From Erysipelotrichaceae bacterium (GTDB lineage Bacteria > Bacillota_I > Bacilli_A > Erysipelotrichales > Erysipelotrichaceae): DNA of 64,000 nt. Below, one piece after another: positions 1,571-26,396 of the stretch (its first letter is position 1; every line of letters starts with the position of its first letter). The notes beneath the pieces were generated by a model. That model saw only the letters and a list, made by a program, of their open reading frames with translations. It was not told the DNA's origin and did no database searches. The stretch is from positions 1 through 64,000 of the forward strand of contig JAFULQ010000010.1 in assembly GCA_017473265.1 (NCBI GenBank), written 5' to 3'. The position numbers and the translations under genes were made by a program.

Positions 1571-1617
1571 TAGGAATAATTAAAAAATTTGACGTATTTA
1601 TAAGTAGGGGTGGTGTT
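1571..1617 (+). promoter_or_regulatory. Shared competence promoter element before comEA
   Basis: TAGGAATAATT (1571-1581) is followed by TTGACGTAT (1589-1597), TATAAG and an RBS (GTAGGGGTGG) just before ATG 1618. The same arrangement, with 16 nt from GG to TTGRC, precedes comGA, dprA and the small gene at 51666. AGGAATA resembles a SigH-type -35. The -10 is probably GACGTAT. The sigma factor is inferred, not shown. Confidence 0.7.
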
Positions 1618-2085
1618 ATGAAATTTATGGTTATTAGTTCTTTAGTTTTTGGTTTATTGTATGCTTGGCCTATGTCTACTTTTTCATTAGATGATTTTCA
1701 AAATGATTCGATTACTGTATATGTACAAGGTGAAGTAGTGGAAGAAAAGAAATTAATATTAGATAAATATAGTACTATTGAAGATGCTTTAAGCTTTATT
1801 GAATTAACTGATGAAGCTGATCTTAGTGGGTTTAATTTGTTGATGTGTTTAAAAGATCAAGATGTTCTATCTATACCAAAGAAAACTACGATTGCGAAAA
1901 TATCGATTAATACTGCAACAGTGGATGAATTAATGAATATTCCTGGTATTGGAAAAGTGAAAGCTGAAAAAATCATATCTTATCGAGAAATAAATGGTTT
2001 GTTTCAAAAAATAGAAGATATTATGAAAATAGATGGCATTAAAGAAAAATCTTTTGAAAAATTGAAGGATTTTATATGTCTATAA
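1618..2085 (+). CDS. comEA: Competence protein ComEA, DNA receptor
   Basis: A 155-residue membrane-anchored double-stranded DNA-binding protein for transformation. An N-terminal hydrophobic segment (about residues 2-20) is followed by an SLBB-like part (SITVYVQGEVV) and a C-terminal helix-hairpin-helix pair (INTATVDELMNIPGIGKVKAEKII, then IDGIKEKSFEKL). An in-frame upstream ATG at 1546 is rejected: it would place the conserved promoter element inside the coding region, and the RBS fits ATG 1618. The 3' end overlaps comEC by 10 nt, so the two are cotranscribed; no comEB lies between them. Confidence 0.9.
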   Translation: MKFMVISSLVFGLLYAWPMSTFSLDDFQNDSITVYVQGEVVEEKKLILDKYSTIEDALSFIELTDEADLSGFNLLMCLKDQDVLSIPKKTTIAKISINTATVDELMNIPGIGKVKAEKIISYREINGLFQKIEDIMKIDGIKEKSFEKLKDFICL

Positions 2086-4031
2086 AAGTAAGTGATGTGA
2101 CTTGTTTTTTAGCCGCAATCGTATTACTAGCTACATTTCTTTTATCGAATGTTTATATAAAGATTGTATTAGTGGTTGTAATGTGTTTGTGGTTAATATC
2201 ATTAAAAGAATATATTAGTATATTTCTAGTGTTATTTGTTCTAGCTGTTGTATATGTACAATTGTTGTATAGTCCTAGTATTGAAAGAGTTGAAGGTAAA
2301 GTTGTGTCTTTAAAAGATACTTATTTTGTAGTAAAAGTGAATCATAATCATATTATGGTTTATGGGGATTTTGATGTTAATTTTGATGATATTGTTTTAG
2401 TTAAAGGAAAAGTAGATAAAATAGCTTCTACCAAAAATAGAGTAGGATATTCTTTTGAGAATTGGACTAAATCAAGAAGAATTAGTAAGGTTTGTTACGC
2501 AGATGAAGTTGTATTGATTAAGAAGGGAAATTCTTTGCGTAATCGTGTCTATCGCAAAATTATTAATCAAGATGAAGATGTAGTTAAAATAATGAAAATG
2601 TTTTTATTTCATATTTATGATGATATTGGATGGTTGTATCTTGGATTGTCTATGGGCATTCATTTATCTTTTATACGTAGGTTAATAGAAAGTGTTAGTT
2701 CTTATTTCTTCTTAGAAAAACAAGTTACTATTATTACGATGCTTTTTTGTGTATTTATAGCTATTTTTTATCATTTTGATTTGATTAGTTGTCGCTTTTT
2801 ACTTCGTCATTTACTTCAATTAACAAACCTAAGTAAAAAGAATCGATGGGGTATTCTTGTGATTGTTTTACTTATCTTGTTTCCTAATATGATATATGAA
2901 TTTGGTTTTTTATTGCCTATATGTATTGGTTTTGTATATTCTTTTGCTTGTAAAAGGGTATATGGCATTTCTCAAATGTTGGTTATGTGGCTACAATTGC
3001 TATTTAATGGATATGTATCAATTTTACAAATATTTGTTGCTAGAATTATTTATCCATTATTTTCATTTATGTATTGTATTTGTTTTATAAATATATGGAT
3101 ACCGTTTCATTTTCCATTGTTATTATTATCTAAATTAATTGATTATTTATGCGTAATTGAATTGCCTTCATTACATATTGTTGGTAAGCCATTTGTTTGG
3201 ATGAGTGTTTTATTTATTTTTGTGATTGTTCAATATGTTGTAACTAGTAATGGGAAATATGTTTGGATTCTTGTTTTGTTGTTTTTAATGAATCATTATC
3301 AAAATCATTGGTATGGATTTAGTAGAGTTGTGTATATTGATGTAGGTCAGGGGGATTGTACCTTGATTTCATTGCCGTTTCATAGAGGGAATATTTTGAT
3401 TGATACGGGTGGCTCTGTATCCTATGATGTCGCAAAAGATATTGTGTATCCTGTGTTGTGTAGTTATGGGATTGATAGATTAGATTTAGTTATATTAACG
3501 CATGATGATTATGATCATGTTGGTGCTTTTGATTCATTATCTACTTTAATTCAAATTGAAAATGTTATTACTGATAAAAATAATGAATATGTTGTGAATG
3601 ATTTTGTTATGTATGATGGATTAGGAAATCAATTATTTGAAGGGGATAATGAGAATAGTTTAACAGCTTGTTTTTCTATATATGGTTCTTCGTTTTTAGT
3701 ATTAGGTGATATTACCAAAGAACAAGAAGAAATTCTTGTTAGAGCATATGATGATTTGCATATTGATTATTTAAAAGTTGCGCATCATGGTTCCAATACT
3801 AGCACATCCAATCATTTATTAGAGTCAATTAAGCCTTTGTATGCGTTTATTAGTTGTGGTGATGACAACTATTATAACCATCCAAGTAAAGAGGTTGTAG
3901 CTCGTTTAAATGGATATCAGATTCCTTTTTTTACGACAAAAGATGAGGGGATGATTGAAATTGTTATTACTCCAATCATGGATTTTTTGATTATGGATAA
4001 ACGGATTATTTTGAATAATAAGATGCGATAA
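2076..4031 (+). CDS. comEC: Competence protein ComEC, DNA-uptake channel
   Basis: A 651-residue polytopic membrane protein forming the channel through which single-stranded DNA enters during transformation. Order: two N-terminal membrane helices, an OB-like soluble part (about 75-160), a hydrophobic Competence domain (about 180-410), then a metallo-beta-lactamase-like C-terminal domain (VYIDVGQGDC; LTHDDYDHVG near 474-483; VAHHGSNTS). It is shorter than the usual ~750 residues; the Competence domain looks trimmed, but I see no frameshift. Cotranscribed with comEA. Confidence 0.9.
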   Translation: MSIKVSDVTCFLAAIVLLATFLLSNVYIKIVLVVVMCLWLISLKEYISIFLVLFVLAVVYVQLLYSPSIERVEGKVVSLKDTYFVVKVNHNHIMVYGDFDVNFDDIVLVKGKVDKIASTKNRVGYSFENWTKSRRISKVCYADEVVLIKKGNSLRNRVYRKIINQDEDVVKIMKMFLFHIYDDIGWLYLGLSMGIHLSFIRRLIESVSSYFFLEKQVTIITMLFCVFIAIFYHFDLISCRFLLRHLLQLTNLSKKNRWGILVIVLLILFPNMIYEFGFLLPICIGFVYSFACKRVYGISQMLVMWLQLLFNGYVSILQIFVARIIYPLFSFMYCICFINIWIPFHFPLLLLSKLIDYLCVIELPSLHIVGKPFVWMSVLFIFVIVQYVVTSNGKYVWILVLLFLMNHYQNHWYGFSRVVYIDVGQGDCTLISLPFHRGNILIDTGGSVSYDVAKDIVYPVLCSYGIDRLDLVILTHDDYDHVGAFDSLSTLIQIENVITDKNNEYVVNDFVMYDGLGNQLFEGDNENSLTACFSIYGSSFLVLGDITKEQEEILVRAYDDLHIDYLKVAHHGSNTSTSNHLLESIKPLYAFISCGDDNYYNHPSKEVVARLNGYQIPFFTTKDEGMIEIVITPIMDFLIMDKRIILNNKMR

Positions 4032-4042
4032 TATGGATTATT

Positions 4043-4051
4043 TGTTATAAT
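4043..4051 (+). promoter_or_regulatory. Extended -10 promoter upstream of holA
   Basis: TGT-TATAAT is an extended -10 element (TGnTATAAT) with its TATAAT at 4046-4051, in the gap between comEC and holA. No good -35 is visible. It would let the housekeeping polymerase transcribe holA independently of the competence operon. Confidence 0.45.
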
Positions 4052-4069
4052 AGAAAAGGTGATTTTTAT

Positions 4070-5047
4070 ATGAATTATGTAATAAGTGGTACTGACTATT
4101 ATTTAGTCAATGCTGAAGTAGAGAAAATCAAAAAGACATATGCTAAAGAGAGTGTAGACATTGTGCAATATGATGCGAGTAATACCGATTTACGTATCAT
4201 ATTGGATGATGCAAATATGCCTTCTTTTTTAGCTGACTATAAAATGATTATTATTAATTACCCATTATTTTTATCTGCAAATGGTAAATTAGATGATGAT
4301 TTGCAAGATATCTTATTACAATATTTAGAAAATCCGAATCCAACAACGATAATAGTATTTGTTTTACATCAAGCGTTAGATTCTCGTAAAGGGTTAGTTA
4401 AACAAATTAAGAAATTATGCGATGTTAGAAATATAGAAGAAATTAATGTAAATGATTTTAAACGTATGATTGTTGCAGAATGTAAAAAACATAAATTGCA
4501 GATCAAAGATGATGCGTTAAGTGAATTGCAAAACCGTTTACCTTTAGATTTTGAAAATTTACGTCATCAAATGGATAAATTAATTGATTATGATGGTGAA
4601 ATCACTGTAAATGTGGTTAAAGCATTGGTTACAAAACCATTATTTGGAACCAATGATAAAGACCATTTATTATTTACTAATGCTATTTTAGCAAAAGATA
4701 TGGAAACTTGTTTTACGATGTGGAAGGATTTATGTATCATCAATAAAGAACCATATTCTTTAATTGGTTTGATTGCTTCACAATTCCGTTTTATGTATCA
4801 AGTTAAATATTTACACAATCAAAGATATTATGCTAGAGATATTGCACAATATTTGAATGCGAATGAATATCGTGTTAGTAAAACGTTAGAGACATTAAAC
4901 AAATATAAGATTGAAGATTTATTAGAAATTTTAAATGCATTAGGTGAATTAGATATGCAAATAAAAAGTGGTGTCATTGATGCGAAAAATGGATTTGAAT
5001 TATTTTTGTTGAAAGTGACTAGAAGGGATTATGTATGGAATCATTAA
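4070..5047 (+). CDS. holA: DNA polymerase III delta subunit
   Basis: A 325-residue clamp-loader subunit that opens the beta sliding clamp. The N-terminal AAA+-like domain lacks Walker motifs, as is normal for delta; the protein starts NYVISGTDYYLVNAEVEKI and contains the typical LPLDFENLRHQMDKL and KPLFGTNDKDHLLF segments. It follows comEC as in many Firmicutes. The 3' end overlaps the start of the serine dehydratase gene by 13 nt. Confidence 0.9.
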   Translation: MNYVISGTDYYLVNAEVEKIKKTYAKESVDIVQYDASNTDLRIILDDANMPSFLADYKMIIINYPLFLSANGKLDDDLQDILLQYLENPNPTTIIVFVLHQALDSRKGLVKQIKKLCDVRNIEEINVNDFKRMIVAECKKHKLQIKDDALSELQNRLPLDFENLRHQMDKLIDYDGEITVNVVKALVTKPLFGTNDKDHLLFTNAILAKDMETCFTMWKDLCIINKEPYSLIGLIASQFRFMYQVKYLHNQRYYARDIAQYLNANEYRVSKTLETLNKYKIEDLLEILNALGELDMQIKSGVIDAKNGFELFLLKVTRRDYVWNH

Positions 5048-6240
5048 AAGAGTTATATCGTGTAGGACCTGGTCCTAGTTCTTCACATACTTTAGCAATT
5101 CAACATGCTTGCTTGTATTTTATTAAGCAATATCCGAATATTGATGAAGTTGTTGTAGATTTGTTTGGTTCTTTATCTTTGACAGGGAAAGGACATCGTA
5201 CAGATAAAATTATTGAAGAAACATTTAGAAATGCTAATAAAACAGTAGAAGTTCGTTTCCAAAATGATTGGAATGTAAAGCATCCAAATACATTAGTAAT
5301 TAAAGATGTACATAGTGATACATCATTGACTATTTATTCAGTTGGTGGTGGTGCGATTCGTGTTGAAGGTGTTGAACAAGTAGTGAATCCGTATGTGTAT
5401 CCACATCATTCATTTGCGGATATTGTACAATTTTGTAATGAAAAGAATTTATCTTTATATGAGTATGTTACGTATTTTGAACCTGAGATTGATTCTTTCT
5501 TGTCAGAAATTTTGGATCAAATGTTAAAGACAGTAGAACAAGGATTACATAGTGAAGGTATGTTGCCAGGATTATTGAATATGCAACGCGTGGCTAATGA
5601 TATTTATAAAAAGGCTGAAGTTGCACTTGATTCTGCTGAAAAGAAAACATTGTTATTGACTGCTTATGCGTATGCTTGTGCTGAAGAAAATGCGGATGGT
5701 AAAACGGTTGTAACGGCGCCTACATTAGGTTCATGTGGCGTAATTCCTGCAGTTATGAGTTATTACTATCATGTATGTAAAGTGGATAAAAAACGTTTAC
5801 AAGAAGCTTTAGCTGTGGGTGGTATTTTTGGTAATTTGATTAAAACGAATGCTACGATTTCTGGAGCAGAGGGTGGATGTCAAGCGGAGATTGGTGCTGC
5901 TTGTGCTATGGCCGCAGCAGCTTGTAGTTATATTGAAAATTTATCGTTTGAGCAAATTGGATATGCGGCTGAGATTGGAATTGAACATCATTTAGGATTA
6001 ACTTGTGATCCAGTAGGTGGATATGTAATGATTCCGTGTATTGAACGAAATGGTGTTGCGGCATTGCGTGCAATGGATGCTATGTTATATGCAAAACATA
6101 TTGGAAGCATAAAACCAAATAAAATTACATTTGATATGGTTGTACAAACTATGAAATATACAGGTAAAAAACTAGCGTTAGAATTAAAGGAAACAAGTCT
6201 TGGTGGTTTAGCGTTAGTGATGCCAATTCATCATGAATAG
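5035..6240 (+). CDS. L-serine dehydratase, single-chain iron-sulfur type
   Basis: A 401-residue enzyme converting L-serine to pyruvate and ammonia. The beta-type domain is N-terminal (VGPGPSSSH, then GSLSLTGKGHRTD) and the alpha-type catalytic domain C-terminal, fused in one chain as in enterobacterial SdaA, unlike the two-subunit form of Bacillus. Candidate [4Fe-4S] ligands are Cys in GSCGVIP, GGCQAEIGAAC and LTCDPVGGYVMIPC. It starts inside the end of holA, so translation is probably coupled, although no functional link is evident. Confidence 0.9.
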   Translation: MESLKELYRVGPGPSSSHTLAIQHACLYFIKQYPNIDEVVVDLFGSLSLTGKGHRTDKIIEETFRNANKTVEVRFQNDWNVKHPNTLVIKDVHSDTSLTIYSVGGGAIRVEGVEQVVNPYVYPHHSFADIVQFCNEKNLSLYEYVTYFEPEIDSFLSEILDQMLKTVEQGLHSEGMLPGLLNMQRVANDIYKKAEVALDSAEKKTLLLTAYAYACAEENADGKTVVTAPTLGSCGVIPAVMSYYYHVCKVDKKRLQEALAVGGIFGNLIKTNATISGAEGGCQAEIGAACAMAAAACSYIENLSFEQIGYAAEIGIEHHLGLTCDPVGGYVMIPCIERNGVAALRAMDAMLYAKHIGSIKPNKITFDMVVQTMKYTGKKLALELKETSLGGLALVMPIHHE

Positions 6241-6245
6241 AAATG

Positions 6246-6275
6246 AAGGATAGCTTTTGCTATCCTTTAATAATA
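6246..6275. terminator. Bidirectional terminator between serine dehydratase and amidase genes
   Basis: AAGGATAGC-TTTT-GCTATCCTT (6246-6267) is a perfect 9-bp hairpin between two convergent genes, with T/A-rich flanks on both sides. It probably serves both transcripts. Confidence 0.7.
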
Positions 6276-6929
6276 TATTTTGACTAATTCAATAAAATCT
6301 TCCCATTTACCAGTATCTCTAAGTGTTTGTGGACAATTTTTACTAGTAAAATCGCCATGTTGTTTTATATCATTCATATCTAGATGATATGCATGTAATA
6401 AATATGCAGTTAGTTTAGCAGCGTTTTCAACTGCAGTATCAAAGTCTCCATCACTATTTACACAAATTTCAATGCCAATTCCGTTTAGATTACCTCCATT
6501 TTTCTTTAATCCATCACTTGCATGCCATCCAACTTCATCATCTGGTAGATGATGGTAAATTTCAGTATCATCAACTGTATAGTGCCAAGAATTGGTTACT
6601 TTGGAATTCTTTTTTAAATAGGTACTATGATTTTCAGCGGTTGAACCAGCTTTTGGATTGCCTGTTTCATGGATAACAATATACTTAATATTTCGTTTAA
6701 TACCAGGACGATTATGGCTTCCTTCTTTAATGAAATCAGTAATTACTTCAACGCCGTAAACGTTTGATGGTTCTATAGCTATAACCGTTGAAAAATATTT
6801 ATCGATAATAGGTAAAGCTACCCAATGATATAAACCATATCCCATAAGAAAAAGGGCTAATGCAACTTCTAAGACTTGTGCTAAAGAAAATCTAAAGCGT
6901 AATCTTTTCTTTTTTACTTTACGTTTCAT
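6267..6929 (-). CDS. Membrane-anchored N-acetylmuramoyl-L-alanine amidase (Amidase_2)
   Basis: A 220-residue peptidoglycan hydrolase cutting between MurNAc and L-Ala. A very basic N-terminus (KRKVKKKRLRFRF) precedes one membrane helix (about 18-38), so it is probably anchored with the catalytic domain outside. The Amidase_2/PGRP zinc ligands are visible as His in VIHETG, His in NSWHYTV and the QHGDFTSKNCP motif. Separated from ispH by one base, so cotranscribed with it. Confidence 0.87.
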   Translation of the reverse strand: MKRKVKKKRLRFRFSLAQVLEVALALFLMGYGLYHWVALPIIDKYFSTVIAIEPSNVYGVEVITDFIKEGSHNRPGIKRNIKYIVIHETGNPKAGSTAENHSTYLKKNSKVTNSWHYTVDDTEIYHHLPDDEVGWHASDGLKKNGGNLNGIGIEICVNSDGDFDTAVENAAKLTAYLLHAYHLDMNDIKQHGDFTSKNCPQTLRDTGKWEDFIELVKIYY

Positions 6930-6930
6930 A

Positions 6931-7845
6931 CTAGAATGGTAATAAATGGTCCATTTCGATAGTTGTATCGCTTGTACCTTGTGATTGTAAGTATTGGATT
7001 ACTTGGTTTGTTAAATAGGTTGGGGTGCTAGCACCTGAAGTAATGGCAATTTTATTGAAATCTTTAAATGATTCATATTGAATGTCTTGAACGGTTTCAA
7101 TTCTAAATACGTTTGGAATACCAATCTTTTTCGCAACATCTTCTAGTTTTCTCGTGTTATTGCTATGAGGATCACCAACGATAATCATACAATCGATGTT
7201 TTGGTTTTCTAATTGATAAATGGCTTGTTGGCGCATTTTGGTTGCTGTACAAATTTCTTCTTGGATTTCTAATTGTGGATATCGTTGTTGTAAGATATCA
7301 ATCCATTTTTGAACCTCCATCATTGACATGGTTGTTTGATTAGTTAAGAATAGTTTGTTTGCTTGTATTTCAATAGTGTTTGCTGTAGTTTCATTTGGTA
7401 TTAAATGAATTTTGCTAGGACAAATGGATAACATAGCATTGGCTTCTGGATGGTTTTCTTTTCCAATATAAAAGACTTCATAACCACTTTGTAAATGTTC
7501 TTTAATAGCAATTTCTGTTTTTGTTACATCTAAACAAGTCGCATCTACTACAATTAAACCTTTAGCTTTTGCTGTATCTTTTACTTCTTGACTAGTACCA
7601 TGTGCTGTTAAAATGACAACACCATTGTCAATCTTTTCTAAAAGTTCAAGTCTAGTTTTTCCTTTTTCATCTATTGTTTTTATACCTAATTTAGTTAGGG
7701 CATCAACTACATATTGATTATGTACAATCATACCTAAAATATAGATATTTTCATTTGGATATTGTTGTTTGGTTTCTTTCGCAATTTTAATTGCACGAAT
7801 AACACCTTTACAAAATCCTTGAGGAATGACTTTAATTATTTCCAT
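6931..7845 (-). CDS. ispH: 4-hydroxy-3-methylbut-2-enyl diphosphate reductase
   Basis: A 304-residue iron-sulfur enzyme, last step of the MEP isoprenoid pathway, giving IPP and DMAPP. Cluster cysteines are seen in GFCKG, DATCLDV and EEICTATKMRQ, with AHGTS and NHPEANA at the substrate pocket. ispG (11001-12062) and dxr (37148-38296) are in the same window, so the organism uses the MEP route. An RBS (GGAGGAAAAA) precedes the ATG. Confidence 0.93.
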   Translation of the reverse strand: MEIIKVIPQGFCKGVIRAIKIAKETKQQYPNENIYILGMIVHNQYVVDALTKLGIKTIDEKGKTRLELLEKIDNGVVILTAHGTSQEVKDTAKAKGLIVVDATCLDVTKTEIAIKEHLQSGYEVFYIGKENHPEANAMLSICPSKIHLIPNETTANTIEIQANKLFLTNQTTMSMMEVQKWIDILQQRYPQLEIQEEICTATKMRQQAIYQLENQNIDCMIIVGDPHSNNTRKLEDVAKKIGIPNVFRIETVQDIQYESFKDFNKIAITSGASTPTYLTNQVIQYLQSQGTSDTTIEMDHLLPF

Positions 7846-7920
7846 ATATTTTTCCTCCTTTGTAATTATCCTATCATATTTTCAAAATTTTTAGTATAAT
7901 AACCACGGAAGGTGATAAAA

Positions 7921-9291
7921 ATGAATATTTTAGAGAAATTCAATTTAAGAGAAGATGTGCTTCAATTTATTGAAACACTTGGATTTAAACAATATACACC
8001 TATACAAGAACAAGTAATCCCATGTGTTTTAAAGGGTAGAGATGTAATTGGTATTTCTGATACTGGTACTGGTAAAACACATGCGTTTTTGATACCAATT
8101 TTTAATAAAATTGATGTAACTAAGGAAAAAGTACAAGCGGTAATTACTGCTCCAACTCGTGAATTAGCTCGTCAAATTTACGAACGCGCTATTGAAATGA
8201 ATGAAGTGAATCCTAATATTCGTATTCGTTTAATTAGTGGTGAAGTTGAAAAAACACGTATGGTTGAACAATTGGAAAAAGGGCAACCCCATATTGTTAT
8301 TGGTACTCCTGGTCGTTTAAAAGATATGTTTGTTCAAAGTGAAGTATTGCGTTTAGATCAAACGGATATTTTAGTTGTGGATGAAGCGGATATGACATTA
8401 GAGTTTGGATTCTTAAATGATGTTGATGCGATTGCTGGAAGAATGCGTAAAGATTTACAAATGTTAGTATTTAGTGCAACAATTCCTCAAGCATTACAAC
8501 CATTCTTGAAGAAGTATTTACAAAATCCACAAATGGTTCAAATTGAGAAAACACAAAGTGCAGCTAAAATTGAACATATTTTAGTTCCTTGTAAGCATTT
8601 GAGTTATACTGAAAAATTATTACGTATTTTACCTGGATTTACTCCATATGTATGTTTAATTTTTGCTAATACTCGTAAATTGGCTGCTGAAGTTGCTGAA
8701 ACATTACGTGATAATGGCTATGATTGTACTGAAATTCATGGTGATTTATCATCACGTCAAAGAAAAAATGCAATGAAAGTGGTATCTAGTCATAGTGCTA
8801 GTTATATTGTGGCTACTGATATTGCGGCTCGTGGTATTGACTTGGATGGGGTTTCTCATGTAGTTTCTTTAGGTTTCCCTACATCTTTAGAGTATTATGT
8901 ACACCGTGCAGGTCGTACAGGTCGTGCTATGCGTGATGGTATTTGTTATGCATTATACAACGATAAAGATGAAGCAAGTATTAATCAATTGAAGGTTAAA
9001 GGTATTGGCTTTAAGCATAAAGACTATAAAGGTGATGCTTGGGTAGAATTAAAACCTTATGGTCAAAAACGTATACCTAAGAATGATTTAGTAGAAAAAG
9101 AAATTGCGAAAACATTACATCGTAAAAATGAAAAGGTAAAACCTGGTTATAAGAAAAAACGTAATGCAGAAATTCAAAAGATTAAACAAAGACAAAGACG
9201 TCAAATGATTAAAGATAGTATTAAGGTGCAAACTAAAGAAAGAAATCGTCAAAAACAAAGAGAGTTGACTTATGGAAATGAAGATTGGTAG
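7921..9291 (+). CDS. cshB: DEAD-box RNA helicase, CshB type
   Basis: A 456-residue ATP-dependent RNA helicase. Motifs in order: Q motif (FKQYTPIQEQVIP), Walker A (SDTGTGKTH), PTRELA, TPGR, DEAD, SAT and C-terminal HRAGRTGR, followed by a lysine/arginine-rich tail (about 395-456) typical of RNA-binding extensions. Its partner nfo starts within its last 20 nt; the cshB-nfo pair is as in Bacillus. ATG 7921 is preferred over GTG 7912, which lies inside the GGAAGG ribosome site. A TATAAT at 7895-7900 may be its -10. Confidence 0.9.
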   Translation: MNILEKFNLREDVLQFIETLGFKQYTPIQEQVIPCVLKGRDVIGISDTGTGKTHAFLIPIFNKIDVTKEKVQAVITAPTRELARQIYERAIEMNEVNPNIRIRLISGEVEKTRMVEQLEKGQPHIVIGTPGRLKDMFVQSEVLRLDQTDILVVDEADMTLEFGFLNDVDAIAGRMRKDLQMLVFSATIPQALQPFLKKYLQNPQMVQIEKTQSAAKIEHILVPCKHLSYTEKLLRILPGFTPYVCLIFANTRKLAAEVAETLRDNGYDCTEIHGDLSSRQRKNAMKVVSSHSASYIVATDIAARGIDLDGVSHVVSLGFPTSLEYYVHRAGRTGRAMRDGICYALYNDKDEASINQLKVKGIGFKHKDYKGDAWVELKPYGQKRIPKNDLVEKEIAKTLHRKNEKVKPGYKKKRNAEIQKIKQRQRRQMIKDSIKVQTKERNRQKQRELTYGNEDW

Positions 9292-14263: not shown

Positions 14264-14311
14264 TAGGAATAATTGATTTTGTTGACGTATATATAAGTAG
14301 GAGTGGTAAAA
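14264..14311 (+). promoter_or_regulatory. Shared competence promoter element before comGA
   Basis: TAGGAATAATT (14264-14274) and TTGACGTATATATAAGTAG (14282-14300) precede an AGGAG ribosome site and ATG 14312. The 16-nt spacing between GG and TTGAC matches the comEA copy. The gap upstream of the element back to the terminator is A/T-rich and holds no gene; a 65-codon ORF at 14191 is spurious. Confidence 0.72.
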
Positions 14312-15280
14312 ATGGAAACAAGATTAAAAGAGATTATTTCTTATGCAATGCACTTACAAGCTACGGATATTCATTTTACATGGAATGAATGTATGTTGAT
14401 TGAATGTAGAGTTCATAAACGATTTATGTTGATTCCTACAAAAGAAAAGGATGAACAATTATTTTCATATTTACAGTATTTATCGAATATGGATTTATCT
14501 AGTTTTGCAAAACCGCAATCGGGTGCCTTTGAGTTAGAAATTAATAACTATTTATATGCATTTCGTTTTGCGATATTAATGACATCGCAACACAAATCTG
14601 GAGTATTGCGTATATTGAATTATCACCAAGCAATTCCTTTGCAACAACTTATACTAAAGGGAGAACATCGGAAAATATTTAAGCAATGGTGTTCATATGA
14701 AAATGGGTTAATTTTAATCGGTGGGCCGACTTCAAGCGGAAAGACGACTACGGCATATAGTTTACTAAACCATATGGATAAACGAAAAATTTACACGCTT
14801 GAAGATCCTGTAGAAATTTATTTTGATTCCATGGTACAAATACAAATTAATCCGAAAATTTCATTAACTTATGATGAAGGAATTAAACAATTATTACGAC
14901 ATGATCCAGATGTGATTTTTATAGGTGAAATACGAGATGAAGTAACAGCAAAAATGGCCATACGTTGTGCATTAACAGGGCATTTGGTGATTTCTACCAT
15001 TCATGCAAGCAGTTGTAGAAATATGATTCATCGCTTATTAGATTTAGGTATTTCGAAATATGATTTAGAAGATGTTTTAGTTGGTCTAGCAAATCAAAGA
15101 TTGTTTCAATTACATAATAAACAAAAACGAGTCAGTTTATATGAACTATATCAAAGAGAGGATATTTTAGATTGTTTGCATCATAAAGAAAGTATATATC
15201 CTAGTTTTCAAAAGGAGATTGCGTATGCATATCAAAAACGTTGGATTTCATTTGAAGATGCCAAAAGAAATATCGTTTGA
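14312..15280 (+). CDS. comGA: Competence pilus assembly ATPase ComGA
   Basis: A 322-residue secretion ATPase of the type II/type IV pilus family that powers the transformation pilus. Walker A GGPTSSGKTTTAY near residue 138, aspartate box (TLEDPVEI), Walker B (DVIFIGEIRDEVTA) and histidine box (TGHLVISTIHAS). Start ATG 14312 has AGGAG 8 nt upstream; the in-frame GTG 14303 falls inside that site. First gene of comGA-comGG. Confidence 0.93.
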   Translation: METRLKEIISYAMHLQATDIHFTWNECMLIECRVHKRFMLIPTKEKDEQLFSYLQYLSNMDLSSFAKPQSGAFELEINNYLYAFRFAILMTSQHKSGVLRILNYHQAIPLQQLILKGEHRKIFKQWCSYENGLILIGGPTSSGKTTTAYSLLNHMDKRKIYTLEDPVEIYFDSMVQIQINPKISLTYDEGIKQLLRHDPDVIFIGEIRDEVTAKMAIRCALTGHLVISTIHASSCRNMIHRLLDLGISKYDLEDVLVGLANQRLFQLHNKQKRVSLYELYQREDILDCLHHKESIYPSFQKEIAYAYQKRWISFEDAKRNIV

Positions 15281-18396: not shown

Positions 18397-18404
18397 TTAT
18401 GATT

Positions 18405-18430: not shown

Positions 18431-18438
18431 AAAAAAAT

Positions 18439-18487: not shown

Positions 18488-18514
18488 ATACAAGGCAATA
18501 AGGAGGAATTTAAC

Positions 18515-18778: not shown

Positions 18779-18781
18779 TTT

Positions 18782-19050: not shown

Positions 19051-19102
19051 TTTTGCTATAATGGTTGTATTATAGTAAAATGTAAGAAACTTGGAGGTTA
19101 TT

Positions 19103-19603
19103 ATGGAATATATTTTAATTGGTGAAATTGTTAATACCTTTGGAATTAAAGGGGAATTAAAAGTAAAAAGTTATACAGATTTTAATGAAGTGCGTTTTGG
19201 TAAAGATCAAACTTTATATATTAAGTTTCATAATGCTTATCAAGAAGTTTGTGTGCATTCCTATCGTGAACATAAAGGGCATGTACTAGTAGCTTTTAAA
19301 GATTTATTGGATATTAATAAAGTTGAGAAATATATTGGATGTGAAATTTATGTATCTGAAGAAGATTTGCATGAATTGGATGAAGGGGAATATTACTTCC
19401 GTGATTTAGTGGGTTGTAAAGTACAATTACATGGTGAAATTATTGGTGAAGTTACTGAAGTAATGGATTATCCTGCAAATGAAGTGTTACGTATCCAAAT
19501 GAAGGATAAAGAAATTTTATTACCATTTGTTGAAGCTTTTGTTTTAGATGTGGATTTAGATAAAGAATTAATTACTATTGATGTAATTGAGGGTATGCTA
19601 TGA
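19103..19603 (+). CDS. rimM: Ribosome maturation factor RimM
   Basis: A 166-residue 30S maturation factor that binds S19. The N-terminal RimM domain (IGEIVNTFGIKGELKVKSYTDF) and the PRC-barrel (EYYFRDLVGCKV, ILLPFVEAFVLDVDL) are present. ATG 19103 follows GGAGG; the TTG at 19091 is rejected because it overlaps that site. Overlaps trmD by 4 nt. Confidence 0.95.
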   Translation: MEYILIGEIVNTFGIKGELKVKSYTDFNEVRFGKDQTLYIKFHNAYQEVCVHSYREHKGHVLVAFKDLLDINKVEKYIGCEIYVSEEDLHELDEGEYYFRDLVGCKVQLHGEIIGEVTEVMDYPANEVLRIQMKDKEILLPFVEAFVLDVDLDKELITIDVIEGML

Positions 19604-20319
19604 GAATCACTGTTTTAACTTTGTTTCCTGAAATGTTTGATGGTTTTTTGCATACATCTATTATTAAGCGTGCTTTAGATAAACAACAAGTAGAAATTGA
19701 ATTGGTTAATTTTAGAGATTTTACTTTAGATAAACATAATAAGGTGGATGAATATCCTTATGGTGGTGGTCAAGGTATGGTTTTGATGTGTCAACCAATA
19801 GTAGATGCCATTAAGCATTATCGTACAGAAAATAGTACGGTGATTCTTATTACGCCTGAAGGGAAAACGTTTAAGCAAGAGATAGCCAGAGAATTGGTTT
19901 ATAAGGAACATTTAATTTTTGTTTGTGGTCATTATGAAGGTTTTGATGCAAGAATTGCAAAGTATTGTGATATGCAATTATCTTTAGGTGATTTCATCTT
20001 AACTGGTGGTGAAGTAGCTGTTATGGCTATAAGTGATGCGATTATTCGCTTATTGGATGGCGTTATTCGTGAAAGTTCACATCAAGATGAGAGTTTTGAA
20101 AATCAATTATTGGAGTATCCACAATACACGCGTCCTGTTGATTTTGAGGGGCATAAGGTTCCGGATGTATTATTAAGTGGTCATCATGAAAATATTCGTA
20201 AATGGCGTTTAAAAGAGTCTTTGAAAAGGACTTTAGAACTACGTCCTGATTTGTTGGAAACTAAAGAATTAACAAAAGAAGAAAGTAAAATGTTAGAAGA
20301 AATAAAGAGCGATTGTTAA
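19600..20319 (+). CDS. trmD: tRNA (guanine-N1)-methyltransferase TrmD
   Basis: A 239-residue SPOUT-class enzyme making m1G37 in tRNAs, which prevents frameshifting. Signatures: LTLFPEMF, PYGGGQGMVL, CGHYEGFDARI and LGDFILTGGEVA of the knotted SAM site. Length is normal. It ends in a shared terminator facing the FAD-protein gene; rplS, its usual neighbour, lies 2.6 kb further on after two inserted genes. Confidence 0.96.
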   Translation: MRITVLTLFPEMFDGFLHTSIIKRALDKQQVEIELVNFRDFTLDKHNKVDEYPYGGGQGMVLMCQPIVDAIKHYRTENSTVILITPEGKTFKQEIARELVYKEHLIFVCGHYEGFDARIAKYCDMQLSLGDFILTGGEVAVMAISDAIIRLLDGVIRESSHQDESFENQLLEYPQYTRPVDFEGHKVPDVLLSGHHENIRKWRLKESLKRTLELRPDLLETKELTKEESKMLEEIKSDC

Positions 20320-20330
20320 AAATCGCTCTT
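20305..20330. terminator. Bidirectional terminator with both stop codons in its loop
   Basis: AAGAGCGATT (20305-20314) pairs with AATCGCTCTT (20321-20330). The loop contains TTAA at 20316-20319, giving the trmD stop on the plus strand and the FAD-protein stop on the minus strand. A T-run follows on the plus side. Confidence 0.85.
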
Positions 20331-21902
20331 ATATTTTTTGATAATTTGTTCTGCACATTTGATACCATCAATTGCACTAGATACAATTCCACCAGCATAC
20401 CCAGCACCTTCACCACATGGATATAAACCAGTAATGGATGCCTCTAATGTATCTTTATTTCTAAGAATACGAATAGGAGAGCTAGTTCTTGTTTCTACTG
20501 CTGTCATAATTGCTCCATCATAACTAAATCCAGGCATAATTTTTTCGTAGTGCAATAGTGCCTCTGTTAGAGATTTATTTAATTCTTCCGGGAATAATTT
20601 ATGTAAATCGCACCATGTGACACCATTAGGATAGCTTGGTAGAACATTATTTGGTTTATTTTCGATAGTAGGATCCAAATAATTGGCAACTAATTGGCAT
20701 GGTGCTTTATAATTTGCATTTGCTAAAACAAATGCCTTCTTTTCTAATTCTTCTTGGAAATGCATACCTGATAATAACTCATTACCATAATCACTAGCAT
20801 TTACTTGAATTAATAAAGCACTATTGGCATTTTCTAGATTACGATCACTATAACTCATACCATTAGTCGCAATTTGTTTATCTTCGCTACTTGCTGCCAC
20901 AACCATTCCTCCAGGACACATACAAAAACTGTATACGCCTTTGTTATTGGAGGTAGTGTGTGTAATATGGTATTCAGCGTTTGGTAAATAGCAAGCGTCT
21001 TTTCCATATTGTAATTGGTTTATATATTCTTGTTTATGCTCAATGCGAACACCAACCGCAAAAGGTTTAGATTCAAGTGCTAATGGTAATTTTGATAGAT
21101 ATGTAAAAGTATCTCTAGCACTATGTCCAATAGCTAAAATGACATCATTAGTATCGAATAATCCTTTGTTTGTAATAATTTTAGTGATTTTATTATTGAT
21201 ATATTCCATTTCTAATAGTTGTGTATCAAAATGAATTTCTCCACCTAAACGAATGATTTCATTACGAATATTTTTAACAATTGTTCTAAGGCAATCGGTA
21301 CCAATATGAGGGTTAGAAACATACTTAGTTTCTTCTTTAGCCCCCATTTTTACAAATTCATCCAATACTTTATGAATACGTAAATCTTTAACACGAGTGG
21401 TTAATTTACCATCAGAAAAAGTACCAGCACCGCCTTCACCAAATTGTACATTACTATTGGTATGTAATTTGTTATGATGCCAATAGTCTTCAATATCTTG
21501 AATGCGTTGTTCAACTGGTTGTCCTCGTTCAATGACGATTGGGCGATAACCTCTTTGAGCTAATAATAGGGCACTAAACATACCAGCTGGACCAAAGCCT
21601 ACAACCACAGGACGATGTGTAAGGGTTTCTAATCCAGAAGGTACATCAGGATAACTATATGGAATAGTTGATGTAATATTTTTATCTTTATTTCTTTTTA
21701 AAATTTGTTCTTCATTAGAAACTGCAACATCAAAAGCATAGACATAATGAATGTCATCCTTTTTTCTGGCATCTAATGATTTACGATATATAGAATAATT
21801 TAATAATTGTTGATCTTTAATTTTCAATCGAGAACAGATGTAGTTGCGTATTTCTTGTTCAGATATTTGAATAGATAATTTACATTGGTTAATACGTAAC
21901 AT
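20316..21902 (-). CDS. FAD-dependent dehydrogenase-like protein (COG2509 type)
   Basis: A 528-residue flavoprotein. The dinucleotide-binding motif VVGFGPAGMFSALLLAQRGY lies near residue 100, after an N-terminal alpha/beta domain (about 1-85) typical of this uncharacterised family; later FGEGGAGTFSDGKL, AIGHSARDT and the C-terminal GLYPCGEGAGYAGGI. Probably an NAD(P)/FAD oxidoreductase; substrate unknown. The start is set at 21902, where AAAGGAG lies 8 nt upstream, not at the upstream in-frame ATG 21935. Confidence 0.85.
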   Translation of the reverse strand: MLRINQCKLSIQISEQEIRNYICSRLKIKDQQLLNYSIYRKSLDARKKDDIHYVYAFDVAVSNEEQILKRNKDKNITSTIPYSYPDVPSGLETLTHRPVVVGFGPAGMFSALLLAQRGYRPIVIERGQPVEQRIQDIEDYWHHNKLHTNSNVQFGEGGAGTFSDGKLTTRVKDLRIHKVLDEFVKMGAKEETKYVSNPHIGTDCLRTIVKNIRNEIIRLGGEIHFDTQLLEMEYINNKITKIITNKGLFDTNDVILAIGHSARDTFTYLSKLPLALESKPFAVGVRIEHKQEYINQLQYGKDACYLPNAEYHITHTTSNNKGVYSFCMCPGGMVVAASSEDKQIATNGMSYSDRNLENANSALLIQVNASDYGNELLSGMHFQEELEKKAFVLANANYKAPCQLVANYLDPTIENKPNNVLPSYPNGVTWCDLHKLFPEELNKSLTEALLHYEKIMPGFSYDGAIMTAVETRTSSPIRILRNKDTLEASITGLYPCGEGAGYAGGIVSSAIDGIKCAEQIIKKYKSDF

Positions 21903-21948
21903 AGAATCATCTCCTTTACTTGATAATTTTGCCATAGATTTTCCTTTT

Positions 21949-21990
21949 TAACAATCTTAGATTGTTATATTTACTAAATTGTGATATAAA
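21949..21990 (+). promoter_or_regulatory. Nucleoside phosphorylase promoter with palindrome
   Basis: TTGTTA (21962-21967) and TATAAA (21985-21990) have a 17-nt spacer. The -35 is the right end of a perfect palindrome, TAACAATC-TTA-GATTGTTA (21949-21967), placed between two divergent genes where a regulator could control both. Confidence 0.5.
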
Positions 21991-22014
21991 CAAATTTGAG
22001 TTGAGGTAGTGTAT

Positions 22015-22797
22015 ATGTTATTAAATGAATTTGATTCTAATAAAAATGCTGTAATTAATCCTAGGTTTAAAAAAGAGGATTACAACTTTCCTGCGATTAC
22101 AATTTCTATCTTTTCAGATGTGTTATTTGAACAAGTATTGCGTTTGTTTGATTATGAAATTATTGAGACAACTCGTTCTTGTAATGGTATTAATCATGTG
22201 TATCGCGTAAATTATAAAGGTTGTGATTTTGCTTTTTATCATAGTTTTGTAGGTGCTCCAATGTGTGTTGCGAATTATGAAGAAGTGCATGCAATGGGTA
22301 GTGAAACTTTGATTTTATTAGGGAATTGTGGTGTTTTAGATAAAGAAATTCAAGATTGTGGCATCATTATTCCTACTTTTGCGATTCGTGATGAAGGAAC
22401 AAGTTATCATTATGTCGAAGCGAATGATACGATTCAAGTAAATAAGAAATATATTCCAGAATTTAAGGAAGTGTTAGAAAGTGCGGGATATCCTTATGTA
22501 GAAGGTGGTACTTGGACTACTGATGCTTTTTATCGTGAAACTAGAGATAAAGTGAATCGAAGAAAAGAACAAGGTGCTATTTGTGTAGAAATGGAATGTG
22601 CGGGAATGCAAGCTATGTGTGACTTTAGAAATACTGAATTTTTCCAATTTTTCTATGCAGGTGATAACCTAGATCATTCTAGTTGGGATCCTCGTAGTTT
22701 AGAGGCAACTGAAAAGTTAGATGATAAAGAAAAGATTGTATTTTTAGCGTTTGAATTAGGGCTAAAAATTGCGAAAAATAAAGGAATTATTGAGTAA
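22015..22797 (+). CDS. Nucleoside phosphorylase (purine/uridine phosphorylase family)
   Basis: A 260-residue PNP/UDP family enzyme splitting nucleosides with phosphate. Typical segments: GAPMCVANYEEVHAMGSETLILLGNCG, FAIRDEGTSYHYV and VEMECAGMQAMCDFR (the EMEC/EMEA ribose-binding site). Base preference cannot be set. ATG 22015 has GAGGTAG 8 nt upstream; the GTG at 22009 does not. deoB further along the window fits nucleoside salvage. Confidence 0.85.
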   Translation: MLLNEFDSNKNAVINPRFKKEDYNFPAITISIFSDVLFEQVLRLFDYEIIETTRSCNGINHVYRVNYKGCDFAFYHSFVGAPMCVANYEEVHAMGSETLILLGNCGVLDKEIQDCGIIIPTFAIRDEGTSYHYVEANDTIQVNKKYIPEFKEVLESAGYPYVEGGTWTTDAFYRETRDKVNRRKEQGAICVEMECAGMQAMCDFRNTEFFQFFYAGDNLDHSSWDPRSLEATEKLDDKEKIVFLAFELGLKIAKNKGIIE

Positions 22798-22920
22798 AAA
22801 AGTATTGATAATATAAGGCGTTTATGGTAATATAAATAAGCCTTTGTGGGCTTAAGTGGTTCCGCTGATCATTATGAGTCATGAGCCATGGATTTATATG
22901 TGAGAAAAAGAAGGAGTAAA
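22798..22920 (+). promoter_or_regulatory. Probable rplS leader region
   Basis: This 128-bp gap before rplS contains several short complementary stretches (AAGCC/GGCTT near 22840-22855, and TCATTATGA, TCATGA, CCATGG further on). Firmicutes rplS genes often carry an L19-binding leader (Rfam L19_leader), so autoregulation is plausible. I could not confirm the fold. Confidence 0.4.
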
Positions 22921-22925
22921 GTAAA

Positions 22926-23270
22926 ATGAATTTAAATTTAGTTAACGAAATTACTAAAAACCAATTACGTGACGTTCCTGAATTCCGCGCTGGTTGCACA
23001 GTTCGCGTACACGTAAACATTAAAGAAGGAGACAAATCTCGTATTCAAATTTTCGAAGGTTTAGTAATTAAAAGAAGCGGTCAAGGAATTGCTGAAACTT
23101 TCACAGTTCGTAAGATTTCAAGTGGTGTAGGTGTTGAAAGAACTTTCCCAGTTCATTCACCAGTTATCGCTAAAATTGAAGTATTACGTCGTGGTAAAGT
23201 TAGAAGAGCTAGATTGTTCTACTTACGTGGACGTTCTGGTAAAGCTTCTCGTATTAAAGAAGTTCGTTAA
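22926..23270 (+). CDS. rplS: 50S ribosomal protein L19
   Basis: A 114-residue protein with the L19 pattern [29 protein letters not shown] and the end [19 protein letters not shown]. It lies at the 30S-50S interface. GAAGGAG is before the ATG and a strong terminator follows, so it is monocistronic here. Confidence 0.97.
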
Positions 23271-23273
23271 TTA

Positions 23274-23300
23274 CAGAAAAAAGCCGGATAATTCCGGCTT
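23274..23300 (+). terminator. Terminator of rplS
   Basis: AAAAGCCGGA-TAA-TTCCGGCTTTT hairpin, 9-10 bp and G+C-rich in the stem, followed by T-rich sequence. Confidence 0.88.
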
Positions 23301-23324
23301 TTATTCTATCGAAAGGAGATTGTT

Positions 23325-23885
23325 ATGAAAGATAAACATCCAATATTGTATGAAATTTTAGATTTTGCGAAAATGATTCTTTTTTCTTTTGTTTTTGTCT
23401 TACTATTAACTAATTTCATCATTCGTCCAGTTCAAGTAATGGGTCCTAGTATGCATCCGACATTAAAAAATGAAGAAATGGGCTTTACGAATATCATTTC
23501 TTTAAAATTGTCTGGTATTCAACGTTATGATGTTGTTGTGGCTTATTTAGAAACGAAAGATGAACAAATTGTTAAGCGTGTTATTGGTATGCCAAATGAT
23601 ACAATCTGTTGTGTAGATGGAGTCGTGTATGTAAATGGAGAAGCAATTGATGAATATTATCTTGATGATAATTATGTATTTGAACAATCACAATTGCAAT
23701 TTGATGGAAAATTCACGAAAGATTTTAGTGAATTTGTTTTAGGTGATGATGAATATTTCTTATTAGGAGATAATCGTTTGCATAGTTCAGATTCTAGAAT
23801 GTTTGGTGTTTTTCAAAAAGAGGATATCGTTAGTAAGCATGTGTATGTATGGTATCCATTTAGTGAGATGAGGGTGGTGAAATAA
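23325..23885 (+). CDS. lepB: Signal peptidase I
   Basis: A 186-residue membrane protease that removes signal peptides of secreted proteins. One N-terminal membrane helix (about 15-33), catalytic Ser42 in MGPSMHPTL, Lys84 in VKRVIG, and the GDNRLHSSDSR box. Bacillus-type short form. GAAAGGAG lies before ATG. It abuts rbgA (one-base overlap). Confidence 0.94.
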   Translation: MKDKHPILYEILDFAKMILFSFVFVLLLTNFIIRPVQVMGPSMHPTLKNEEMGFTNIISLKLSGIQRYDVVVAYLETKDEQIVKRVIGMPNDTICCVDGVVYVNGEAIDEYYLDDNYVFEQSQLQFDGKFTKDFSEFVLGDDEYFLLGDNRLHSSDSRMFGVFQKEDIVSKHVYVWYPFSEMRVVK

Positions 23886-24739
23886 TGAGTATTCAATGGT
23901 TCCCTGGTCATATGACCAAAGCTAAAAGGGAAATGGAAGAGAAAATTAAATTAGTAGATATGGTAATTGAAATTCGTGATGCTCGTATTCCTAATGCATC
24001 TCGTAATCCTTTGATTCAACAAATTTGTGGTCATAAGCCTCGTTTGATTATTTTGTCTAAGAAAGATAAAGCTGAGGAGAATGTTACAAAACAATGGATT
24101 GAGAAATTAAGTGAAAATAATGTACGTGCAATTGCTTTGGATTTATTAAAAGAAGATTTAACTAAAGTTTTGACGAATGAATGTCAATTGATGATGAAGG
24201 AAAAGATTGATCGTCAAATTCGTAAGGGAATTCGTCCTACTGCAATTAAGGCAATGGTTGTTGGTATTCCTAATGTTGGTAAATCAACATTAATTAATCG
24301 TGTTGCGAAACGAAAAGTTGCGCAAACCGGTGACAGACCAGGTGTTACTCGTGCATTACAATGGGTAAAAGTATCAACTCAATTGGAATTATTAGATACA
24401 CCAGGTGTATTATGGCCTAAATTTGAAGAAGAAAAAGACGGTTATGTGTTGGCAGTTACTGGAGCTATTCGTGATGAAATTTTACCGATGGAAGATGTAT
24501 TTGCGTATGCTATGAATATCTTAATTAAGCATTATCCAAAGTATTTGGTGGATCGTTATAACATTGAGGTATGTGAAGATCCTTTTGAATGTATGGAACG
24601 TATTGCTCGTAAGCGTGGTTTTATTATGAGTGGTAATGAAATTGATACAGAAAGAACGATGAAGATTGTTATGAAGGAAATTCGTGGTGAACAATTGGGT
24701 CGTATTAGTTGGGAGCTTCCTTATGCAAACAAGCAATGA
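23885..24739 (+). CDS. rbgA: Ribosome biogenesis GTPase RbgA (YlqF)
   Basis: A 284-residue circularly permuted GTPase needed for late 50S assembly. The starting IQWFPGHMTKAKREM, G4-like SKKDKAEE before G1 (GIPNVGKSTLIN, about 128-139) and G3 DTPGVLWP show the permuted order. The end overlaps rnhB by 17 nt, the usual pairing in Firmicutes. Confidence 0.95.
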   Translation: MSIQWFPGHMTKAKREMEEKIKLVDMVIEIRDARIPNASRNPLIQQICGHKPRLIILSKKDKAEENVTKQWIEKLSENNVRAIALDLLKEDLTKVLTNECQLMMKEKIDRQIRKGIRPTAIKAMVVGIPNVGKSTLINRVAKRKVAQTGDRPGVTRALQWVKVSTQLELLDTPGVLWPKFEEEKDGYVLAVTGAIRDEILPMEDVFAYAMNILIKHYPKYLVDRYNIEVCEDPFECMERIARKRGFIMSGNEIDTERTMKIVMKEIRGEQLGRISWELPYANKQ

Positions 24740-25343
24740 ACAAGAGTTGCGTATTTGGGCATTGAATGAGACCTGTGTAGGTATTGATGAAGCAGGTAGA
24801 GGTCCTATTGCTGGTCCGTTAGTTGTGGCTGGTGTTGTATTTCCTGTAGGCTATGATTCCAAAGAAATCTATGATTCTAAGAAGTTATCTGAAAAGAAAA
24901 GAGAAGAATTATTTATTCGTATTAAAGAAGATGCCTTATATTACGATATCCAAGTTGTCTCTATTGAAGATATTGATCGTTTGAATATCTATCAAGCAAC
25001 GAAAGAAACGATGCATCAAATTGCGTTAAAAGCGCCTGTAAAGCATGTATTAACGGATGCGATGCCTTTGGATATGGATAAAGAAGTTACTTCTTTGGTT
25101 AAAGGAGATACATTGAGTTGTTCCATTGCGGCGGCTAGTATTTTAGCTAAAGTTACAAGAGATCATATTATGTATGAATTAGATAAAAAATATCCGCAAT
25201 ATGGTTTGGCAAAACATAAAGGATATCCTACTAAAGCACATTTAGAAGCATTAGAAACATATGGTGTTTTGGATATTCATCGTAGAAGTTATGGACCTGT
25301 TGCGAAGTGTTTACAACAACAAATGTGTATGGATTTAGATTAG
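24723..25343 (+). CDS. rnhB: Ribonuclease HII
   Basis: A 206-residue enzyme cutting RNA in RNA-DNA hybrids and at single ribonucleotides. Catalytic Asp and Glu in GIDEAGRGP, Asp in LTDAMPLD and the KGDTLSCSIAAASILAKVTRD signature. ATG 24723 inside the end of rbgA is chosen; the ATG at 24684 lacks an RBS and adds a non-family stretch. Confidence 0.94.
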   Translation: MQTSNEQELRIWALNETCVGIDEAGRGPIAGPLVVAGVVFPVGYDSKEIYDSKKLSEKKREELFIRIKEDALYYDIQVVSIEDIDRLNIYQATKETMHQIALKAPVKHVLTDAMPLDMDKEVTSLVKGDTLSCSIAAASILAKVTRDHIMYELDKKYPQYGLAKHKGYPTKAHLEALETYGVLDIHRRSYGPVAKCLQQQMCMDLD

Positions 25344-25365
25344 CGCTACTTATGTAGCGTTTTTT
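25344..25365 (+). terminator. Terminator of rnhB
   Basis: CGCTAC-TTAT-GTAGCG followed by TTTTTT, directly after the stop codon. Confidence 0.85.
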
Positions 25366-25425
25366 GTTGTATTTTTATAAAAACTATGTAAAATATAAAC
25401 TGTTTATAAAAAGGGGAAATTAAGT

Positions 25426-26352
25426 ATGGATATTATCTTTTTAGTTATAGGTATCTTTTTCTTAGTTAAAGGTGCTGATTTATTTGTAGATGGCGCTAGT
25501 TCTATTGCTTCAAATATTAAAATTCCAACAATCATTGTTGGTTTAACAATCGTTGCATTTGGTACAAGTGCTCCAGAAGCAGCTGTGAGTGTTACTGCTG
25601 CATTAGCTGGTTCAAATGAAATTGCAATTAGTAATGTAGTTGGTTCTAATATTTTTAACTTAATGATGGTTGTAGGCGCTGCAGCTATGATTATGAAAAT
25701 GCATGTACAAACAAGTATTATTAAGGAAGAGTTCCCAATTTTAATTGTGGCTTCTTTATTATTAGTTGTTTTCTGTTTAACTGGAAGTTCAATTTCACGT
25801 ATTGAAGCACTTATTTTCTTATTGTGTATCATTGCATATGTTATTCGTTGTGTAATGACTGCATTAAAAGATCGTGATAATTTAGAAGTTGAGCCTGCTA
25901 AATATAATACAATTATGGCTGTTCTATTAGGTGTTTTAGGTATGGCAGGTATTGTATTAGGTGCTGATTTTGTTGTTGATGGTGCTAGTTCTATTGCGAA
26001 AGCATTAGGTGTTAGTGAAACAATGATTGGCTTAACTATTGTATCTATTGGTACATCTTTACCTGAATTTGTAACAAGTGTTGTTGCGGCTAGAAAAGGT
26101 GAAGTTGATTTAGCATTAGGTAATGTTATTGGATCAAACTTATTTAATATTTTGTTTATTTTAGGATTATCTGGAACTATTATTCCAATTCCATTTGCTA
26201 GCAGTATGAATATTGATATTTTCATTATGTTAGGTTGTACATTGTTTGTATATCTTATTGCGAAGACTAGAAAATCATTTGGATTTGCTAGTGGATTGGT
26301 TATGGTGTTATTTAATATTGCATATTTAGTATTTGTTTGCATTAGAGCGTAG
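25426..26352 (+). CDS. Calcium/sodium antiporter, CaCA family
   Basis: A 308-residue membrane protein with two homologous halves. Each half carries an alpha repeat: GLTIVAFGTSAPEAAVS...NVVGSNIFN (about 42-78) and GLTIVSIGTSLPEFVTS...NVIGSNLFN (about 203-240). It exchanges Ca2+ or a similar cation for Na+ or H+. About ten membrane helices. A 312-codon antisense ORF here is only its mirror. Confidence 0.92.
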   Translation: MDIIFLVIGIFFLVKGADLFVDGASSIASNIKIPTIIVGLTIVAFGTSAPEAAVSVTAALAGSNEIAISNVVGSNIFNLMMVVGAAAMIMKMHVQTSIIKEEFPILIVASLLLVVFCLTGSSISRIEALIFLLCIIAYVIRCVMTALKDRDNLEVEPAKYNTIMAVLLGVLGMAGIVLGADFVVDGASSIAKALGVSETMIGLTIVSIGTSLPEFVTSVVAARKGEVDLALGNVIGSNLFNILFILGLSGTIIPIPFASSMNIDIFIMLGCTLFVYLIAKTRKSFGFASGLVMVLFNIAYLVFVCIRA

Positions 26353-26396
26353 GGAAAATTAAAAAAGTTGGCGTATATATAAGTAGGGGGGATAAA
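26352..26396 (+). promoter_or_regulatory. Shared competence promoter element before dprA
   Basis: TAGGGAAAATT (26350-26360), starting in the stop codon of the antiporter gene, then TTGGCGTATATATAAGTAG (26368-26386), a GGGGG ribosome site and ATG 26397. Spacing equals the comEA and comGA copies; the sequence is the most diverged of the four. Confidence 0.65.

Follow-up and report, generated by a model that had tools for sequence, protein, structure and literature searches.

Four copies of one short two-block element, which we call the com-box, lie in the 64-kb stretch of Erysipelotrichaceae DNA analysed here (the window; contig JAFULQ010000010.1, positions 1 to 64,000), which belongs to contig C5 of a 1.8-Mb genome (G000). 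The first copy (1571..1604, + strand) stands before comEA (1618..2085, +), the gene for the DNA receptor, recognised by NCBIfam TIGR00426 above its cut-off and by Pfam. The second (14264..14297, +) precedes comGA (14312..15280, +), the first gene of the comG pilus operon, which matches NCBIfam NF041000 with an E-value of 3e-80, somewhat under the cut-off, and the third (26350..26383, +) precedes dprA (26397..27119, +), with TIGR00732 above its cut-off. The fourth copy (51617..51650, +), which is identical in a sister genome, is followed by a small open reading frame (ORF). An initial annotation of the window had noticed that three of these copies precede DNA-uptake genes, and all four of the positions it gave proved to be exact and on the + strand.

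When the 64 kb were searched with the pattern TAGGRAWAATT-N7-TTGRCGTAT, allowing up to 3 mismatches, exactly four matches were returned, all on the + strand, at 1571, 14264, 26350 and 51617; as had been claimed, the element occurs nowhere else in the window at this threshold. The chance expectation is 0.11 matches, and no shuffled sequence reached four. With a weight matrix derived from 18 genome sites, the four copies reach 36-45 bits (44, 39, 45 and 36 bits, in order) and every other window position 6 bits or less, and in three random sequences of 1.8 Mb the top scores were 12-19 bits.

Between the two blocks lie 7 nt, which gives a start-to-start offset of 18 nt and not the 16 nt first reported. 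Promoters of SigH follow the rule AGGA, 17-18 nt, GAAT (PMC12456013). At the window sites the -35 block reads AGGAATA or AGGGAAA, in agreement with AGGA(W)WW, and the distance from AGGA to the -10 tetramer is 18 nt at all sites, so the earlier suggestion that AGGAATA is a SigH-type -35 fits in both sequence and spacing. The -10 tetramer in this genome is GTAT, one base away from the GAAT of SigH, and the GACGTATA in which it lies differs by two bases from TACGAATA, the streptococcal SigX box or CIN-box (PMC6224593); neither GAAT nor the CIN-box itself stands at these sites. The layout is therefore TAGGAATA, 18 nt counted from AGGA, then GTAT within GACGTATA, or more generally a -35 of AGGRWWW and a -10 of (R)(R)CGTATWW. 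In the first copy the -35 is TAGGAATAATT and the -10 is GACGTAT, extended TTTATAAG. At the window sites GACGTAT ends 20-22 nt upstream of the start codon with a Shine-Dalgarno sequence in between, a correction to the 10-20 nt given before, and the TATAAG hexamer described as part of every copy follows in copies 1-3, while the fourth reads AATAAG.

Since the SigH tetramer is altered at a single base, we take GACGTAT to be the -10 and ATAAG to be the region of the start. Transcription would then be predicted to start about 6-7 nt past GACGTAT, in ATAAG, leaving a leader of some 15 nt, nearly all of it Shine-Dalgarno sequence. The same letters could be divided differently, with the box as the operator of an activator and TATAAG as the -10 of an ordinary SigA promoter, since TATAAG is kept in most copies and looks like a SigA -10. 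However, TATAAG is placed about 13-15 nt ahead of the start codon and extends into the Shine-Dalgarno sequence, so that SigA transcripts would begin at or beyond it, and no TTGACA-like hexamer is found at SigA spacing from it. The fixed spacing of the blocks is also more like that of sigma contacts, and two boxed units, ssb and CptIN, have a separate SigA-like promoter further downstream. We regard an operator over a SigA promoter as very improbable.

Over the entire 1.8-Mb genome the com-box occurs about 17 times. With up to 1 mismatch there are 14 sites in this genome and 12 in the sister genome (G003), a looser pattern adds more, and a reversed pattern used as a control gave 0 matches in either. 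At the same threshold the exact form has no site in the 29 other relatives, and no exact com-box was found in the viral contigs searched. The initial annotation had proposed a competence regulon, and the genome-wide search supplied further matches at comFA-comFC (L011/L237), recA (L018) and rpsF-ssb-rpsR (L053/L239, where the SigA-like promoter is nearer the gene), so that the late competence genes sharing the box include comE, comG, comF, dprA, recA and ssb. Transformation genes account for 6 of the roughly 17 boxed units, with a chance probability of about 3e-9 under round totals for genes and units that are our own assumption. Neither pilD nor cinA is among the box matches, and these genes were not located separately. 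Judged from the sequence, the reading as a competence regulon is supported. Matches with 3 mismatches inside coding genes (L012, L013, L015, L016, L019-L021) were rejected as chance, with similar counts in the controls, and a further candidate (L014) is weak, at 12 bits and without a Pfam match. At comFA (L011/L237, 6112-6189) the apparent GTG start lies only 8 nt past the -10, too close to accommodate a Shine-Dalgarno sequence, and the sister genome is alike; if the box is a promoter there, the transcript may be leaderless.

Does the element extend beyond this pair of genomes? We surveyed the upstream regions of comGA, comEA, comFA and dprA in 29 relatives, reading the box form of each genome by eye, except for the count of CGTAT, which occurs in 33 of 107 of these upstream regions against 4.0 +/- 2.2 (maximum 9) after shuffling. 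A pairwise comparison of shared windows in the comGA and comEA upstream regions was underpowered, missing the known pair in the window genome, and was set aside in favour of pattern counts. Within one genome the four com genes tend towards a common form. The -10 forms are mostly CGTATA, at times CGAATA or GAATA, and quite different in a few genera. Thus G009 has TTTAGGATTTTCAC followed by ACGTATA at 4/4 genes (written for modelling as TAGGATTTTCAC-N-ACGTATA), and G008 has GGTAGGAWTTT followed by CWATGWTA at 4/4 genes with the 21-nt register unchanged. G007 carries GCGTAT at three genes, G017 a -35 of ACGTTTT with a -10 of CGTAT, and G005 AGGAWTT followed by TAATAAWG at three genes, while G004 mixes CGAATA and CGTATA, and both G022 and G027 have GAATATA at their com genes. 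Since cognate boxes stand at the com genes of relatives, the claim of a regulon holds, and these per-genome forms are those to be expected if one SigH-type recognition system has been drifting, not if the element were of a new kind.

The genome encodes eight proteins with a Sigma70_r2 domain, which by sequence and context include a primary sigma factor, four sporulation factors that are sigE-, sigF-, sigG- and sigK-like, two of extracytoplasmic function (ECF) type, and a protein of 201 amino acids. The gene for this last one lies between rlmB and secE-nusG, in the order cysS-mrnC-rlmB-sigH-secE-nusG, and the SigH models of NCBIfam are its best matches. SigH-like factors diverge rapidly, and the cysS-nusG locus has been used to recognise sigH (PMC3364868). 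Nearly all of 31 genomes show the order mrnC-rlmB-(SigH-like)-secE-nusG recognisably, and each has a SigH-like gene there, the uncertain cases being G028, where the gene is broken by stops, and G006, where the match is weak and the protein longer. Beyond the closest relatives, SigH is 21-39% identical to that of the window genome, compared with about 45-65% for RlmB. In G028 (L250, G028:C46) a CGTATA box precedes comGA even though the SigH gene is interrupted.

We consider it likely that the com-box is a competence-regulon promoter, recognised by RNA polymerase that carries this lineage's sigma factor of the SigH/ComX family. Because GTAT is so near to GAAT, and because GAATA or CGAATA occurs at the same genes in relatives, a SigH/ComX orthologue is the best candidate, and the sigma factor is most likely such an orthologue with lineage-drifted specificity and not a novel factor; the 201-amino-acid SigH homologue at the rlmB/secE-nusG locus would be its most likely form. 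The element itself we class as a variant of the SigH/ComX promoter, because its -10 is GTAT and not GAAT. The initial annotation, having seen that the second half was not GAAT, had suggested a recognition site for a lineage-specific sigma factor; the absence of GAAT was correct, but the single-base difference and the forms in relatives speak for drift. From these patterns we infer promoter activity, dependence on SigH, the start sites and co-induction of the boxed genes.

Several points weigh against this assignment. The 201-amino-acid homologue scores under the NCBIfam equivalog cut-offs, and its top model is named just 'RNA polymerase factor sigma-70'. The -10 is not GAAT, and SigH is a candidate arrived at by elimination, synteny and consensus. 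In Bacillus subtilis, sigH, spo0A and the sigF operon are classic SigH targets. Here no box was found before spo0A (59391-60197, -, within the window), the sigF operon, sigE, sigG, the sigK-like gene or the sigH operon; the boxed set is not a sporulation regulon. In favour of the assignment, the sister genome differs at 8 of 220 box positions compared with 67 of 660 positions in upstream DNA, most sharply at an Rpn gene, with 1/20 and 35/60 differences, but this contrast comes mostly from two loci.

That sister genome is apparently the Erysipelotrichaceae metagenome-assembled genome from water buffalo rectum whose ComGA is 97% identical, and 11 of its 12 boxes (up to 1 mismatch) are at orthologous places. 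It also holds a second, partial comGA (L104, G003:C92) that is 71% identical and has its own box, TAGGTATGTTT...TTGTCGTAT, which probably reflects a mixed bin.

With eight Sigma70_r2 proteins in the genome and a -10 that is not GAAT, the reader of the box might be another factor, the SigK-like one or one of the two ECF-like ones, serving as this lineage's own competence sigma. The SigK-like gene (832-1524, -) is indeed divergent from comEA and lies near comEA in G002 and G003 too. Promoters of SigK and SigE, though, use other elements, and by eye the AGGA -35 and CGTAT -10 seem unlike those of SigK. For the 172-amino-acid factor, the next gene resembles an RsgI-type anti-sigma gene. The AGGAATA -35 and the 18-nt spacing fit SigH (PMC12456013), and the GAATA and CGAATA forms at the same genes in relatives tie the element to SigH/ComX, which leaves another sigma factor a rather improbable reader.

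Activation of the SigH/ComX-family factor would be expected to switch on DNA uptake through comEA-EC, comG and comF, and the handling of incoming DNA through dprA, ssb and recA. A second arm would comprise Rpn nucleases, CptIN type III and ParE-type toxin-antitoxin modules, an exporter and a small peptide, and because toxin-antitoxin and Rpn genes are also boxed, the regulon is not purely one of DNA uptake. Boxes stand before two Rpn/PDDEXK_2 genes (L007, L069), the only copies in the genome that Pfam recognises, with a chance probability of about 1e-4 using rough totals, and before a third Rpn-like gene (L067; TIGR01784 below cut-off). The CptIN locus (L008/L228; L228 3600-3930, G000:C25, -) has the box upstream, and its toxin is a CptN homologue (PDB 4rmo, E-value 1e-62; NF047359 above cut-off). 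Upstream of this toxin a 45-nt unit is repeated in 2.1 copies, followed by a hairpin with a T run, which is the type III layout, and the SigA-like promoter lies between com-box and repeats; an Rfam scan of the locus found no RNA. The other boxed units are a ribbon-helix-helix and ParE pair (L022), an ORF6N protein (L023), an ABC ATPase with a membrane protein (L001/L226), a weakly matched C39-peptidase-like protein (L006), a protein of 134 amino acids of no assigned family (L010) and a degenerate ORF (L009).

Toxin-antitoxin and Rpn membership is the least expected finding, and the promoter sequence is its sole basis. The regulon might consist of the uptake and recombination genes alone, with the boxes at Rpn, toxin-antitoxin, ABC, C39-like and peptide genes functionless or carried as passengers of mobile genes; several are in variable regions (ORF6N, and ParE near a restriction locus), and one boxed unit is the degenerate ORF, which has a stop in the sister genome. 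These boxes nevertheless score 28-43 bits, as high as those of the com genes, against at most 19 in random 1.8-Mb sequence, and the distance of 20-22 nt to the start codon is mostly retained. The genome's two PDDEXK_2 genes each carry a box, and one of the Rpn boxes is kept in the sister genome despite its diverged flank. We therefore hold a regulon without the second arm to be unlikely. More tentatively, with somewhat less than even confidence, we propose that SigH has been diverted from sporulation to competence, that it co-activates modules of growth-arrest and anti-phage type (every Rpn nuclease that Pfam recognises, CptIN and the ParE pair) and a small, possibly secreted peptide, and that SigH and its -10 are rapidly co-diverging across the order. 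Competence would then be a combined state of uptake, recombination and self-protection. In Escherichia coli, Rpn proteins raise RecA-independent recombination (PMC5350276), and they were later reported as anti-phage toxin-antitoxins (PMC10327210); the boxed Rpn, CptIN and ParE genes belong to these same known protein families. A limited literature search found no report of Rpn, CptIN or ParE under a competence sigma promoter.

The arrangement resembles several known systems. Shared with SigH (Spo0H) of Bacillus, Clostridioides and Sporomusa are the -35, the spacing, the sigma family and the sigma gene locus; the differences are the GTAT -10 and the unboxed spo0A and sigF operon. The com genes are boxed directly here, whereas SigH of B. 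subtilis is no direct activator of uptake genes (PMC3364868). As with streptococcal SigX/ComX, one sigma-read box precedes DNA-uptake and recombination genes (PMC6224593), and in streptococci the CIN-box also occurs at bacteriocin-linked genes (PMC4497675) and at the prophage gene prx (PMC6224593). In contrast to the CIN-box, the -10 GACGTATA has two of eight bases different and is accompanied by a strong AGGAAWA -35, the sigma gene is in the ancestral sigH locus, and Rpn and toxin-antitoxin modules are included. A further parallel is with Latilactobacillus sakei, where a SigH-like factor drives com genes (PMC3364868), and Staphylococcus aureus, in both of which a fast-diverging SigH-like protein with conserved synteny stands over com genes (PMC3364868, PMC3486894); these species are non-sporulating, whereas the window genome retains spo0A and sigE/F/G/K-like genes. 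In the literature searched we found no account of how competence is controlled in Erysipelotrichales. Our result supplies the regulon with a sequence rule and names a candidate sigma factor. In GAAT, GTAT, CWATGWTA and TAATAATG it also provides a naturally occurring set of sigma-promoter pairs that have diverged, with which one could ask how sigma specificity shifts while an entire regulon follows. The shared promoter also makes it testable why competent cells might arm toxin-antitoxin and Rpn systems.

The unit at the fourth copy consists of the box, a Shine-Dalgarno sequence, an ORF of 42 amino acids (51666..51794, +), the sole one found between box and terminator, and an intrinsic terminator (51793..51817, +) with an 11-bp stem and a T run, where 0.1 are expected. 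Because this terminator intervenes, the DUF349 gene beyond it is probably not the target of the fourth copy and was rejected. The N-terminal half of the 42-residue peptide is hydrophobic and its C-terminal tail basic, and the identical peptide is encoded in the sister genome (L045), with one synonymous change in its gene; it could be an exported product. Elsewhere in the window, comEA is followed by comEC (2076-4031), named by its position and a metallo-beta-lactamase domain, and then by holA (4070-5047), while dprA is followed by topA (27184-29202), identified by Pfam.

Two further sites lie outside the window. In the sister genome (L035, G003:C94, 1375) a perfect box has no long ORF after it, just very short overlapping ones, and a small RNA or tiny toxin is possible downstream. 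In the window genome, at about 25.7 kb of another contig (L017/L235, G000:C19), a weak box with a GAAT -10, which we treat as a lead only, precedes genes for a 56-amino-acid peptide, a SPOR-domain protein and radC, in that order; the peptide has a double-glycine leader (MKLTSLQMQEMKGGA...) and is possibly a bacteriocin or pheromone.

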